Below are positions 10,189 through 59,486 of a DNA stretch of 64,000 nucleotides, piece after piece. The stretch is from assembly GCA_029851835.1 (NCBI GenBank), contig JARKVD010000021.1, positions 1 through 64,000 of the forward strand, written 5' to 3'. How positions within the stretch are numbered: the stretch's first letter is position 1; the number at the start of each line of letters is the position of its first letter. The stretch comes from Clostridium sp. Its GTDB lineage: Bacteria; Bacillota; Clostridia; Clostridiales; Clostridiaceae. The position numbers and the translations under genes are program-made. Below the pieces are notes generated by a model that was not told the origin of the DNA, searched no databases, and saw nothing but the letters and a program-made list of their open reading frames with translations.

Positions 10189-10214
10189 ACAAGTAAGGAA
10201 TATAATTTAAGTTG

Positions 10215-10526
10215 AAAATTCAATATAAATGGTGTTTGTAACTTAATAGGGAATTAGGATGAACCTAAGCTACCCCAGTAACCGTGATACTGACAAAATC
10301 CTAAAAAGCCACTGCAGATTTTTGTGGGAAGGCGTGGAGAGTAGAATGAAGTAGAGCCGGGAGACCTGCCAATTATATTATGAAGCTTATTATCTTCTGA
10401 GGGTGAGATAGTAAATACAAATTGATTTTAAAGTACAAATTATGGAATTGTGTGAATTATTTATAATTTCTGATTTGTTTGAATTGATTAATGTGTATTG
10501 TGGACACCGTCAAGGTGTCTTTTTTA
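10215..10526 (+). promoter_or_regulatory. Cobalamin riboswitch with intrinsic terminator
   Basis: The aptamer shows the expected order of conserved pieces: AATAGGGAA (about 10246-10253), a GCTACCCC-AGTAACCGT region (10270-10288), AAGCCACTGC (10306-10315), GGGAAGGCG and the B12 box AGCCGGGAGACCTGCC (10355-10370). A further hairpin (about 10391-10412) and then a terminator follow: GACACC at 10503-10508 pairs with GGTGTC at 10514-10519, followed by seven T. High adenosylcobalamin should stop transcription before btuF. The downstream genes are cobalamin import and salvage, which fits. Confidence 0.93.
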
Positions 10527-18439: not shown

Positions 18440-18796
18440 AAAATAAAGCATTGATGAGGTAAAGTAACTATTAGGAGTTTTCACAGAGAAGGTTAGTTTG
18501 GTGAGATAACCTATGACAAATTTTAGTGAAGTGCGCCTTTGAGCTGAAAAGCCGAAATTAATGAAACTCCGCCCTCTTCGTTTGGGGTAGTGAGTTCGAA
18601 GGATTAAATCACGGGTGCCCTAGGGGTATGGATTTAGATTCTCACTTAAGTAGGTTTTTATGGAGTCTCCCATTATAGAGATATGGTATTTAAGTACCAG
18701 AATTGAGATGGGCATTTGATGCTTAATCAGAGTGGAACCGTGGAAGATTTATACCTTCTGCCTCTGTGTTTGTACAGGGGTAGGAGGTTTTTTGTA
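18440..18796 (+). promoter_or_regulatory. T-box riboswitch, specificity cysteine
   Basis: Stem I is recognisable: AGTAACTATTAGGAG, ACAGAGAAGG, the apical GGTTAGTTTGGTGAGATAACC, then TAGTGAAG, TGC, GCCTTTGAGC. I read TGC (18532-18534, Cys) as specifier because it is followed by the usual purine. The T-box sequence AGAGTGGAACCGTGG is at 18729-18743. Its TGGA should pair with a tRNA whose discriminator base is U, as in tRNA-Cys, while tRNA-Val (alternative codon GTG) has A. The terminator is 18753-18767 with 18774-18788 plus six T. Uncharged tRNA-Cys would allow transcription of the symporter. Between stem I and the antiterminator lies copy R6 of the dispersed repeat. Confidence 0.9.
18562..18650 (+). 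repeat. Dispersed structured repeat, copy R6, inside the T-box leader
   Basis: Reads TGAAACTCCgcc, GGTAGTGAGTTCG, ATTAAATC then a longer loop and GGATTTAGA, and ends TTCTCACTTAAG. It is more diverged than most copies but has all landmarks in order, with TA flanks (aaatTAatgaaac and cacTTAag). It sits exactly between stem I and the stem III/antiterminator part of the T-box. Confidence 0.75.
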
Positions 18797-49944: not shown

Positions 49945-51261
49945 CTATTTATTAGTTAATATATTTATTCCTTCTTCTATAGTAACTAATGATTGCTCTC
50001 CAGTTACCATATTCTTAACTACTATTTTGTTTTCAGCTTTTTCAGTTTCTCCTATAATAATAACATTTGGAACGCTAAGTTTATTAGCATATTTCATCTT
50101 TTTAGGGAACTTACCGCCTTCAACATATATGTCAACCTTAAGGCCTGCTTCTCTTAACTTGCTGCAAACCTCAATACCGTAATCGAAATCGTCATCCATT
50201 GGGATAACCATAGCATCCATAACAGAATTTTTATTTAAATCTATAATGTTACTCTCCATGAAGCTCCAGAATAATCTTGTTAATCCGATAGATATACCAA
50301 CTCCAGGAAGTTTCTTTTCTGTGTAGTATTGTGCTAGATTATCATATCTTCCACCAGAGCAAACGGATCCGAACTCTGGATAATCGTCTAGGAATGTTTC
50401 ATAAACCGTTCCAGTATAATAATCAAGTCCTCTAGTGATTTTAAAGTCGATGATATAGTTTTTATCAGGAACTCCAAGAACTTTTATATACTTATTTACA
50501 GTTTCAAGCTCTTCAACACCTTCAACAAATTTTTCATGAGTAACACCTAGATTTTTAAGCATTTCGATTTTTTCATCATTGCTTCCAGTGGTTGTAATGA
50601 AGCTGATAAGAGAATTCATTGCTTCTTCAGAAGAAACATAGTTTTTAAGCTCTTCTCTAACTTTCTCTTCTCCGATTTTTTCGATTTTATCTACAATTCT
50701 AAGCACTTCTATGTAGCTATCTATATTTAAGCTTCTTAAGAAACCATCTAATATTTTTCTGTTATTTAATCTTATTTTGAAGTTTTCAAATCCTAGTTCT
50801 TTAAAGATTTTATAGATTATGCTTGGAATTTGTGCATCATTAACTATACTTAAAGACCCATTTCCAATTACATCAACATCACATTGATAGAATTCTCTAA
50901 AACGACCTCTTTGATTTCTCTCTCCTCTATAAACCTTACCTATTTGGTATCTCTTAAAAGGAAATGCTAACTCTTCCATGTGCTGTGCAACATAACGAGC
51001 TAGAGGCACTGTAAGGTCAAACCTTAAAGCCATGTCAGTACTTCCTTTAGTTAAGGTATAGATTTGTTTTTCAGTATCCCCACCAGTTTTAGCAAGTAAA
51101 ACCTCACTTTTTTCTATAATTGGGGTGTCTATTGGTAGAAACCCGAAGGATTCATAGTTTCTTCTAATAACATCAGAAACGTGGTTGAATGCTACTTGCT
51201 CTCTTGGCGTAAGCTCCATAAATCCAGGTAGTATGCTAGGTTTAGTAATTTTTATACTCAT
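49945..51261 (-). CDS. hisS: Histidyl-tRNA synthetase
   Basis: A class II tRNA synthetase of 438 residues that charges tRNA-His. Motif 1 region: FGFLPIDTPIIEKSEVL. Motif 2: RYQIGKVYRGERNQRGRFREFYQCDVDVIG (read in two parts, about residues 103-132). The histidine-specific loop is DFKITRGLDYYTGTVYET and motif 3 lies around GVGISIGLTRLFW. A C-terminal anticodon domain (VMDAMVIPMDDDFDYGIEVC onward) completes it. The start is preceded by AAAGGAGAGA. The gene lies behind a leader with a His-rich peptide and a terminator. Confidence 0.95.
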   Translation of the reverse strand: MSIKITKPSILPGFMELTPREQVAFNHVSDVIRRNYESFGFLPIDTPIIEKSEVLLAKTGGDTEKQIYTLTKGSTDMALRFDLTVPLARYVAQHMEELAFPFKRYQIGKVYRGERNQRGRFREFYQCDVDVIGNGSLSIVNDAQIPSIIYKIFKELGFENFKIRLNNRKILDGFLRSLNIDSYIEVLRIVDKIEKIGEEKVREELKNYVSSEEAMNSLISFITTTGSNDEKIEMLKNLGVTHEKFVEGVEELETVNKYIKVLGVPDKNYIIDFKITRGLDYYTGTVYETFLDDYPEFGSVCSGGRYDNLAQYYTEKKLPGVGISIGLTRLFWSFMESNIIDLNKNSVMDAMVIPMDDDFDYGIEVCSKLREAGLKVDIYVEGGKFPKKMKYANKLSVPNVIIIGETEKAENKIVVKNMVTGEQSLVTIEEGINILTNK

Positions 51262-51319
51262 GTTTATCTCTCCTTTTCCTCTTAGTAATAGAAGGCGTAT
51301 TATTTGAAAATCCTTACCA

Positions 51320-51387
51320 TAAGTGAGTGTCCAAATCTATGATTAGGATAACACGAACTTACTCCTTTGAATGAAAAGGAGTTTCCT
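51320..51387 (-). repeat. Dispersed structured repeat, copy R10
   Basis: TAAGTGAGTG, CCAAATCtatGATTAGG, GAACTTACTCCTTTG, AAAGGAGTTTCCT, TA on both sides. It lies between the hisS attenuator terminator and the hisS start codon, so it is part of the hisS mRNA. Confidence 0.92.
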
Positions 51388-51445
51388 TATTTATTGCAAG
51401 GAGCAAATTATACTTAAATTAAGTTATTTTTTAATATTATATTGT

Positions 51446-51619
51446 AAAAATAAAAAATCTCTAAAGACTGATATCCTTAGAGATTTAAACTTCTATAATC
51501 TCCATAGATACCTTGCCACATGCAAATAGGCCTATATCTATGGCTTCATTTTTAAACCATAATTATAAGGCCGTTAATCTATGATGATGAATATGTAATT
51601 CGTTTAGTGTATTTCTCAT
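51446..51619 (-). promoter_or_regulatory. Histidine leader-peptide attenuator of hisS
   Basis: The leader ORF (51619-51563) is followed by possible alternative stems. GGCCTTATA, which overlaps the end of the ORF, can pair with TATAGGCC (about 51528-51535). CCATAGATA can pair with TATCTATGG (51535-51543 with 51502-51510). GAGATT (around 51498) can pair with AATCTC, the 5' arm of the terminator. The terminator stem is AATCTCTAAGG / CTTTAGAGATT (51486-51456) and ends in TTTTTTATTTTT. Which pairings are mutually exclusive was judged by eye only. Confidence 0.75.
51563..51619 (-). CDS. His-rich leader peptide of hisS (18 residues)
   Basis: ATG at 51619, 9 nt after AGGAG. The peptide is MRNTLNELHIHHHRLTAL: four His codons within five positions (CAT ATT CAT CAT CAT). 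This is the layout of amino-acid biosynthesis leader peptides such as hisL, where ribosome stalling at His codons signals low charged tRNA-His. The gene downstream is histidyl-tRNA synthetase, which makes chance unlikely. Clostridial hisS genes are more often controlled by T-boxes; no T-box sequence is present here. Confidence 0.8.
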   Translation of the reverse strand: MRNTLNELHIHHHRLTAL

Positions 51620-51634
51620 TATAATCATCTCCTA

Positions 51635-51709
51635 TAAGTGAACATCCAAATCTTTGATTTGGTTAATGAAACTTACTCCTTAGAATGAATATGAAAAGGA
51701 GTTTCCTTA
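51635..51709 (-). repeat. Dispersed structured repeat, copy R11
   Basis: TAAGTGAACATCCAAATC, GATTTGGTTAATG, AACTTACTCCTTAG, AAAGGAGTTTCCTTA. It fills the 5' leader between the hisS promoter and the ribosome binding site of the His-rich peptide. Confidence 0.92.
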
Positions 51710-51715
51710 ATAAAT

Positions 51716-51744
51716 AATCTATCACTTTCTAAAATATCTGTCAA
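51716..51744 (-). promoter_or_regulatory. Sigma-A promoter of the hisS leader
   Basis: On the minus strand TTGACA (51744-51739) and TAGATT (51721-51716) with 17 bp between. The predicted start site is at about 51709, the edge of repeat copy R11. Confidence 0.75.
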
Positions 51745-51987
51745 TAAGTTTAGTTTTTAGTAACTGATGAATAAGAAATTTTGTCTTTTTGCGAGTAGAC
51801 GAAGGTAAGAAATTACATGTGTAAATAATAGAAGCAGATTTAAGGCGAATTAATAAAAAAAATCATATTCTATGACAGAAATTTTCAATTGAAAAATACC
51901 TGAAACATAGTTAATATAACATTAACGGAATGGTAAAAATTTACACTGGATTTACTGTTTTAATTTTTATTTTTAGGGGGGAACGGA
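51745..51987. other. Promoter region of the subtilisin gene
   Basis: AT-rich. TTTTCAATTGAAAA at 51882-51895 is a perfect palindrome and a possible regulator site. No clear promoter was fixed, although TTAATATAAC near 51910 could be a -10 region. GGGGGGAA precedes the subtilisin start. Confidence 0.4.
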
Positions 51988-54900
51988 ATGAATCTAAAAA
52001 AAGTCATGGCTATTGGAATTGCACTTTCAATAGTAACTGGGTCTAGCGGATCTGCATTTGCTTCAGAAACTAAGCTATTGCAAACTTTAAATGCAGAGAA
52101 AAATAAGGTTACAAAACTGGAGACACAGATTTCTGCGGAAGAAGGTCTACAGAGCATTAATGACTCTGACACAGTTAGAGTTATAGTTGAACTAGAGGAG
52201 CAGCCAGTAATAGAAAGGGCTACAGCCGAAGGTATAAAAATTCAAGATATGAGTGCGTCTCAACTTGAAGGATTCCAAAAAGCAATATTAAGTCAGCAGA
52301 AATCAGTTCAAAAGACTATTAAATCAAAGGGTGTAAGTCTTAATGTCCTTAATAGTTTTACAAATGTAGTTAATGGATTTAGTGCTGAGACTACATTGGC
52401 AGAGGCTAAGAAGATTGAAGGTATGTCAGGGGTTAAGTCAGTTACTATTGCTAACGAATATGAAAGACCTGAACCAGAAATGAACTACAGTGGAGATATT
52501 ACTGATACAGTGCCTACTTGGAACCTTGGTTATAAGGGAGAAGGTACAGTAATTTCAATTATTGATACAGGTGTAGATTCATCTCATAGAGATATGACAC
52601 TTACAAAGCCTAAAAAGGCTGAACTTCAAATTGACGAAGTAGAAGAGATAGTAGCAGAAAAGAATTTACCAGGTACTTATAGAACTTCAAAGGTTCCATA
52701 TGGATACAACTATATGGATAATAACCAGGAGATTCTAGATTTAGGACCAGATGCAAGCGAGCATGGAATGCATGTTGCAGGTATTGCAGCTGCCAATGGA
52801 AATGTTGAAAAAGGCGGTATAAAGGGAACAGCACCAGAGGCTCAAGTCCTTGCCATGAAAGTATTTGGAAACAATCCTTCAATGCCATCAACTTTTGGAG
52901 ATGTAATAATTAAAGCTATAGACGATTCAGTTATTCTTGGAGCAGATGTTATTAACATGAGTTTAGGTTCAACGGCTGCTTTTGTTAATGATGAAGATCC
53001 AGAACAAATGGCTGTAAATAGAGCTGTTGATAATGGCGTTGTAGTAGCTGTATCTGCAGGAAACTCTAATGTTTTTGGTAGTGGACATGATAATCCATAT
53101 GCTGAAAATCCAGATTACGGTGTAGTTGGAGCACCAGGGCTTGCTACTGATTCACTTCAAGTGGCATCTATAGAAAATAGTAAAATGACTGGATACGGTG
53201 TTGAATTTACCATTGATGGAGTAAATAAGGTGTATCCATATACTAGTTCAGGAACAGATGTATTATCAGTTTTAAAAGGTAAGGAACTTAAAGTTGTAGA
53301 TTGTGGATTAGGTGGTCTTCCAGAGCACTTCCCAGCAGAGGTGGCAGGAAATGTTGCATTAATTGAGCGTGGTACCTATGATTTTACATCTAAAATTATC
53401 AATGCAGAGAAGGCAGGAGCAGTTGCAGTCATAGTATATAATAATGCTGGTGGTGGAGATGAACTTATCAATATGATGTACCCAGAGGGCGGAAAGATTC
53501 CAGCTATGTTTGTTGGAAATACTGCAGGAGTTGAAATTAGAGAAAATTCAACTGAGAGTGGGTTCACAGTAGCGTTCAAGGGCACACAAGCAATAGCTAA
53601 TAATCCAGCAGCAGGAAGCATGTCATCATTTACATCTTGGGGAACAACTCCAAACTTAGAAATCAAGCCTGAAATTACAGGCGTTGGTGGAAATGTATGG
53701 TCAACTGCTCAAAATAATGGATATCAAAATATGAGTGGTACTTCTATGGCATCTCCAAACGTAGCTGGTGGTGCAGCATTAATCGTTGAGAGAGTTGAAA
53801 AAGACTTCCCAGAATTAACAGGCGAAGCTAAGGCAAAGCTGATTAAGAAAATCATGATGAGTACAGCAACACCACATGTGGATAATGGTAATTATCAATC
53901 TTTAGCAGCTCCAAGTGGTGCTAACTATACATCACCAAGAAGACAGGGTGCTGGAGTTATGAATTTATATAATGCAGCTACTACGCCAGCGATAGTTACA
54001 GATAACACAAGTGACGAATGTAAAGTTAACTTAAAAGAGATTACAGGTGATTCAGCAACATTTACAATCACTGTCACAAACTTTAGCAATAAAGAATTAA
54101 CTTATGTACCTAAGGGAACTGTTCAAACAGATTTAACTGATGGTGAATATAGCTATCTTCAAGCACAAAATATAGTTGATGCAGAAACTAAATCATTCCC
54201 AATGAGCTTTAGTTCAAATGAGCTTGTAGTACCAGCTAATGGAACTGCAGATTTAACTATAACTGTTGATTTAAGTAATGCTGTAACTGGATTTGGTGGA
54301 GCTGCTTTAGAAGAAGTATTTGCAAATGGAGCATATGTTGAAGGATTTGTAACTTTAACAGATAAGGCTGATAATAGTGGACAGTTAAGCATTCCATATA
54401 TGGGATTCAAGGGACAATGGGATAAGGCTCCAGCTATAGATGCTTCTATTTACGATGAAGATAGAGCTACCTTCTACGGCTTTACTTCTATAGCTACTCA
54501 TACTGGAGGCGGAAACTACGATTTCTTAGGTGTTAACCAACCAGGTAAGGTTGCAGATGCAACTAAAATTGGATTCTCACCAAATAAAGATAACTCAATC
54601 GATACAATAACCCCTGTACTTTCTTATTTAAGAAATGTAAAAGAGTTACAGATTGAAATCCTTGATGAAAATGGTGGAGTAATTAGAAACCTAGCAGAGG
54701 AGTTTAATTTAAGAAAGCATTACTATGATGGAAATCCTAAAAATCCTAAATATCATATTATAGAGGCGGCTACTTGGGATGGAGTTGCTAATAATAAGCT
54801 TGTTAAGGATGGGGATTACACTTACAGGGTAAAAGCTTTAGTAGATTATGAAGGAGCAGAGTGGCAAACCTATGATTTCCCAGTTAAGGTTGATACTGTT

Positions 54901-59412: not shown

Positions 59413-59486
59413 ATAAGTGAGCATCCAAATCTATGATTTGGTTAATGCGAACTTACTCCTTCGACCAAAAGGAGAAGGAGTTTCCA
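59413..59486 (-). repeat. Dispersed structured repeat, copy R13
   Basis: TAAGTGAGCATCC, AAATCtatGATTTGG, GAACTTACTCCTTCGACC, GAGAAGGAGTTTCC. It lies between the attenuator and the first exporter gene. Confidence 0.92.

Follow-up and report, generated by a model that had tools for sequence, protein, structure and literature searches.

Known leader-peptide systems

The his operon leader of enterobacteria (RF00514) contains a run of His codons and alternately pairing segments that are read by the ribosome. A hisS leader in Clostridium sp., located in a 64,000-nucleotide stretch of DNA (the window), has a logic in common with this leader, but the RF00514 model gives no match to it at E ≤ 5.

In Bacilli, His leader peptides are found before hisS* and hisZ (Naville and Gautheret, 2010; PMC2965389). 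Compared by description, these leaders and the window leader share a His-codon leader ORF, a premature terminator, a target of the hisS family, and a Firmicute host. Whereas the target in Bacilli is a second paralogue, hisS*, beside a T-box hisS, the window target is the only HisRS found, and its host is a Clostridium. His attenuators also precede the his operon in the B. cereus group, C. difficile and its relatives, and Erysipelotrichales (Ashniev et al., 2022; PMC9413887). Like the window leader, they combine a leader peptide (theirs with three to five His codons) with an antiterminator and a terminator. Their target, in contrast, is a biosynthetic operon, and hisS is absent from the main text of that study; one match (in G153) to the covariance model R1 described below precedes a hisZ-like gene. 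In C. difficile, hisZ is preceded by a His leader peptide (PMC4833913).

In five genomes, C. novyi among them, candidate uORFs with Phe/Tyr codons have been reported before shikimate genes (Stav et al., 2019; PMC6429828). By description, these would represent aromatic amino-acid leader-peptide control, as would the Tyr/Phe leaders considered below, but the target genes differ. Finally, a 2024 publication described RF04312 (the trpB motif, SRC-39-1) as a strong candidate riboswitch; of its two conserved hairpins, the second is a terminator (PMC11109978). Its authors count more than 900 representatives, place it upstream of trpB and of uncharacterized amino-acid ABC transporters, and could not exclude a classic attenuator (PMC11109978).

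Organization of the hisS leader

The list below gives the leader parts in the direction of transcription, every one of them on the minus strand of the window, with the basis of the assignment in brackets where one applies.

51716–51744 (−): promoter of the sigma-70 type, TTGACA at 51744–51739, 17-nt spacer, extended −10 TG-A-TAGATT ending at 51716 (sequence)
51634–51709 (−): repeat copy A, between the promoter and the leader Shine-Dalgarno (SD), outside the switch
51629–51633 (−): SD of the leader ORF, AGGAG (sequence)
51563–51619 (−): leader ORF MRNTLNELHIHHHRLTAL, 18 codons, ATG at 51619, stop codon TAA at 51565–51563
51557–51572 (−): segment b, GGCCTTATAATTATGG, spanning the leader stop codon; predicted partner c (ribosome-constrained folding, swap test)
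51529–51543 (−): segment c, CCATAGATATAGGCC; predicted partner b or d (folding, c:d covariation)
51496–51512 (−): segment d, GGTATCTATGGAGATTA; predicted partner c, or e as antiterminator (duplex energy, swap test)
51455–51486 (−): intrinsic terminator, arms e and f, followed by the T run TTTATTTTTA
51315–51400 (−): repeat copy B, between the attenuator and hisS, outside the switch
49945–51261 (−): hisS, histidyl-tRNA synthetase, 438 aa, the regulated gene (TIGR00442)

The His codons of the leader ORF occupy positions 9, 11, 12, and 13 (HIHHH; 51595–51593 and 51589–51581), and the terminator stem (51486–51455) comprises 14 pairs with an energy of −15 kcal/mol. The hisS product scores 408 bits against the TIGR00442 equivalog, for which the cut-off is 287. 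The full 479-nt leader folds with a z of −5.9. An earlier note on this DNA had described a consensus promoter, an AGGAG-led ORF with four His in five codons, a terminator, and then hisS; every one of these parts was found, on the minus strand. The interval that it gave, 51446–51744, holds the attenuator parts and ends short of the 193 nt that separate the terminator from hisS, where repeat copy B and a weak second promoter-like site are located. The latter (51434–51407, minus strand) lies 3′ of the attenuator terminator and has a TATAAT-like element at 51412–51407 and a poor −35. It could bypass the switch and allow attenuation-independent transcription of hisS.

No Rfam family reaches its cut-off in the hisS leader in a scan to E ≤ 5. 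The best weak match is RF04312, with 37.1 bits and an E of 0.002 over the whole model, below the gathering cut-off of 59 bits. Scores for L10_leader, PyrD_leader, and CRISPR-DR5 in the leader were attributed to chance or to generic A/T-rich hairpins. Elsewhere in the window, a cobalamin riboswitch is present at 10213–10387 (+), and a T-box at 18442–18768 (+) overlaps the start annotated for a 481-aa ORF resembling a dicarboxylate/amino-acid symporter.

The ~75-nt element of copies A and B is a dispersed palindromic intergenic repeat, often in tandem, with two hairpins, one of which pairs AGGAG with CTCCT; a further copy lies at 59413–59485 (−). Genome searches gave 58–67 matches in the 2.19 Mb genome of the window strain, 21 in G006, and 13 in G005, and none in the four other congeners searched. 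The two closest congeners lack copy A at the equivalent position, and the hisS leader is framed by the repeat solely in the window strain among the strains compared. The duplicated element was considered as a second regulatory RNA and rejected because it is dispersed in the genome and absent at the hisS leader of the congeners. With copy A present, the leader SD is predicted by folding to be only ~45% unpaired.

Alternative pairings and the proposed switch

The earlier note mentioned possible alternative stems. These could be located as two pairing sets among segments b, c, and d and terminator arms e and f: either b:c with d:e (the antiterminator) or c:d with e:f (the terminator). The d:e duplex of the window has an energy of −14.7 kcal/mol, against −7.0 ± 1.7 for shuffles (p = 0.003); the b:c duplex of the window alone does not differ significantly from shuffles (p = 0.10). 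Folding was then constrained by the ribosome, with the covered bases kept single-stranded and the transcript extending up to arm e. With a His codon in the A site, the window leader is predicted to form b:c (0.91) and d:e (0.97). With the stop codon in the A site, c:d rises to 0.86, d:e is 0.47, and b:c is 0. In the model, the alternative-structure analysis that the note had called for thus favors b:c and d:e while the ribosome occupies the His codons, and c:d once it has reached the stop. Across 60 leaders, the stall and stop states differ significantly, though only to a modest degree (26 up, 14 down, p = 0.008); the closest relatives show a clear difference and the HHHY group a faint one, and the modelled d:e antiterminator is weak in many HHHY-type relatives.

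Comparison among leaders supports these pairings. In an alignment of 65 leaders that had been fitted to the same structure, 62 c:d cells have changed on both sides versus 29 in shuffles, and 87% of the c:d cells are paired versus at most 54% when the arms are slid. A single MAFFT alignment that ran through the terminators was unsuited to counts of terminator pairs. In 59 leaders, each leader's own b:c and own d:e segments pair better than swapped partners (p = 0.0002 each, a value inflated by the relatedness of the sequences).

According to the proposed mechanism, plentiful charged tRNA(His) would let the ribosome reach the stop codon within b and cover that segment, whereupon c:d would pair, the terminator e:f would form, and transcription would end before hisS. 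When charged tRNA(His) is scarce, the ribosome would stall on the CAT codons and leave b free; b:c and d:e would then pair, no terminator would form, and hisS would be transcribed. In the absence of a ribosome, the window transcript ending at arm e is predicted to prefer the antiterminator; therefore, the leader would have to be translated for hisS to be shut off. For the full-length transcript without a ribosome, the minimum free energy structure forms the terminator. We infer the translation of the leader, the stalling at His codons when charged tRNA(His) is short, and the resulting readthrough.

The locus has the parts of an attenuator: a short SD-led ORF, a codon run that fits the gene, and an intrinsic terminator before the gene. 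To these, computation adds a predicted antiterminator that excludes the terminator and is chosen by ribosome position. Sequence and modelled folding together make it very probable that hisS is under ribosome-mediated transcription attenuation by a His leader peptide. The same stall/stop logic operates in the enterobacterial his and trp leaders.

Conservation of the His leader

Within the genus, the leader is present in six of seven genomes (that of the window strain, G002, G003, G004, G005, and G006); the seventh, G001, lacks it and has only another type of hisS. The leader-controlled hisS is the sole HisRS match in the window strain's genome (82.7% complete) and in G005 and G006 (both 99%). 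Upstream of the leader, two congeners have the same promoter arrangement (TTGACA, 17 nt, TGaTAAATT). The leader peptides of congeners differ (VKYLSNRKYEHHHRCKVL, MSTLNRNKVYFMHHHH, MRVLSIVKQNNIHHHY, and others), and the His run, the SD, and the general layout are kept.

The covariance model R1 was built from nine leaders, with L029 left out because of bad alignment. R1 matches occur in 74 of 207 genomes of the family, including 62 of the 173 of good quality, and in 20 of 46 genera. Sixty of the 70 matches inspected lie upstream of hisS (59 by BLAST and L141 by reading). The other targets are an SNF symporter (five cases), a family-3 solute-binding protein, the hisZ-like gene of G153, and an ABC permease (one each); of the remaining two matches, one has no convincing leader and one is at a contig edge. 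All 60 distinct His-group leaders contain an SD-led ORF in which His codons, adjacent or alternate, occur close to the end, and none of the shuffles does (dinucleotide shuffles, 40 rounds); the count is biased in codons but not in reading frame, start, SD, or stop, since R1 includes CAT codons and its matches therefore favor His leaders. The comparison with relatives proposed in the earlier note thus shows the ORF, its His codons, and the terminator kept together in six of the seven genomes of the genus and in dozens of genomes elsewhere in the family.

A strict His-ORF scan was passed by only 5 of 78 named hisS loci, one of them doubtful, although the scan missed the HYH form; control of this kind therefore appears patchy among hisS genes. 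Very short His attenuators precede hisS in two loci from uncultured Clostridia (L121, 1335–1468; L123, 1317–1436), which match R1 weakly (E of 0.42 and 0.007, respectively). This type may represent His leaders beyond the window's family.

RF04312 and a probable modular leader family

The RF04312 model consists of the c:d hairpin and the terminator, and holds neither codons nor the leader ORF nor segment b. The window leader and RF04312 have in common the P1 hairpin (c:d), an antiterminator in its right shoulder, a terminator (segments c, d, e, and f), and leader ORFs. They differ in that RF04312 is classed as a riboswitch candidate with the leader ORF and segment b outside the model, and that the window leader falls below its cut-off. 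A search of 195 genomes of the window's family found sub-threshold RF04312 matches in 68, including His and Tyr leaders.

Above-threshold members were taken from the order of G473, which would be that of the lactic-acid bacteria, judging from a Lactococcus control and gene content; a second set came from several families. A leader ORF was accepted if it had an ATG, an SD with at least four of six matches, and an end 10–45 nt before P1. Such an ORF precedes P1 in 51 of 52 distinct matches of the first set (shuffles 3.1, maximum 8) and in 57 of 58 matches of the second (shuffles 5.0, maximum 10). In the second set, the last nine residues include at least one Trp in 56 leaders and two Trp in 34. 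The model holds no codons, and these sets are therefore free of the His-codon bias of R1.

The codon run changes with the downstream gene. Peptides ending in WQNWRR or WQSR stand before a PF04392 substrate-binding protein (TrpX-like) or trpB, the names TrpX and TrpB being assigned by protein family and Pfam. HHH endings stand before hisS or hisZ, and a His run also precedes a solute-binding protein. YYYNYYR and FFFSFFR are found before SNF symporters (PF00209), YYFSYFS before a PF05525 transporter, FFFNSQFR before a PF02653 permease, and NLLLLANL before another SNF symporter. In constrained folding of 50 leaders of the RF04312 set, the terminator arm is predicted to be bound by d at 0.54 when the ribosome is stalled versus 0.23 at the stop (39 up, 5 down, p = 1e-9), and at 0.58 versus 0.13 in the Trp group alone.

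The window strain itself has a Tyr version, MNNCTTFNFIKLNSYYYNYYR, before an SNF symporter (G000:C14:132356–132441, minus strand, equal to L191 2057–2142, minus strand). It has two successive terminators and an RF04312 score of 52.2 bits, and the symporter is predicted to be a tyrosine-regulated transporter. The leaders of L204, L215, and L220 carry five or six Leu codons close to the end and precede an SNF symporter, which suggests a leucine or branched-chain substrate. Tyr/Phe leaders precede PF05525-type 'branched-chain' transporters in L197, L206, L212, L216, and L217 (Pfam checked for L206), which suggests an aromatic instead of a branched-chain substrate.

Taken as a whole, RF04312 is most probably a ribosome-read attenuator, namely the c-d-e-f part of the Trp version, rather than a riboswitch. 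With similarly good confidence, a single homologous family of modular attenuators would extend from Clostridiaceae to lactic-acid bacteria, with the codon run (His, Trp, Tyr/Phe, or Leu) swapped per gene and RF04312 as its Trp version.

Alternative explanations

T-boxes control many Firmicute aminoacyl-tRNA synthetase genes, and one lies in the same window, so that a diverged T-box before hisS deserves consideration. The earlier note held that none was present. RF00230 has no match in the leader, either in the window at gathering level or in 51200–52000 at E ≤ 5, nor was a T-box found upstream of the other hisS genes sampled from relatives, yet the same scans do detect T-boxes elsewhere (18442–18768 in the window and L012 2990–3249, downstream of its hisS). 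Moreover, the components of the leader already have another explanation, and a T-box is extremely improbable here. A small gene followed by a constitutive terminator, with hisS transcribed from its own promoter beyond it, would fit the TATAAT-like site with its poor −35 and the presence of repeat copy B between attenuator and hisS in the window strain. However, the peptide diverges outside the His run, unlike a functional small protein, the terminator arm co-varies with segment d, and the terminators of congeners stand 73–75 nt from hisS without the repeat. This explanation is very unlikely.

The leader could instead be a metabolite-binding riboswitch, as proposed for RF04312, with the short ORF there by coincidence. 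This reading has behind it the published status of RF04312 as a strong candidate, with its two conserved hairpins, and the sequence conservation of the P1 core AUAGAUAC...GUAUCUAU, but the authors of RF04312 themselves left an attenuator possible (PMC11109978). Ligand binding explains neither the SD-led ORF 10–45 nt before P1 in nearly every match of both sets (51/52 and 57/58) nor the way in which the codon run varies between target genes, and the alternate pairing of c, d, and e may account for the conservation of the P1 core. The chance that the leader acts as such a riboswitch is slight indeed. Attenuation by the His leader peptide, as the earlier note proposed, is the reading that sequence and folding models support: relatives retain the ORF with its His codons, and no T-box model scores in the leader.

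Implications

The earlier note suggested an undescribed regulatory class. Published work already covers his genes under leader-peptide control in Firmicutes (PMC2965389; PMC9413887), and the class is therefore not entirely undescribed; the membership of the leader in a modular family to which RF04312 also belongs makes the phenomenon larger than first supposed. A search of the open-access literature, with few subscription journals covered, found no hisS leader in Clostridium and no account of RF04312 as a leader-peptide attenuator. Priority for the two is not certain. The single hisS leader belongs to a known kind, and the codon-swapped modular family and the reassignment of RF04312 are the new part.

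These results indicate that many clostridia control a housekeeping tRNA synthetase gene by classical ribosome-read attenuation, a mechanism familiar mainly from proteobacteria, instead of by a T-box. For RF04312, a widespread orphan RNA filed as a candidate riboswitch, they offer a direct, testable answer. If this is true, the codon run would predict the substrate of uncharacterized SNF, PF05525, and ABC transporters.
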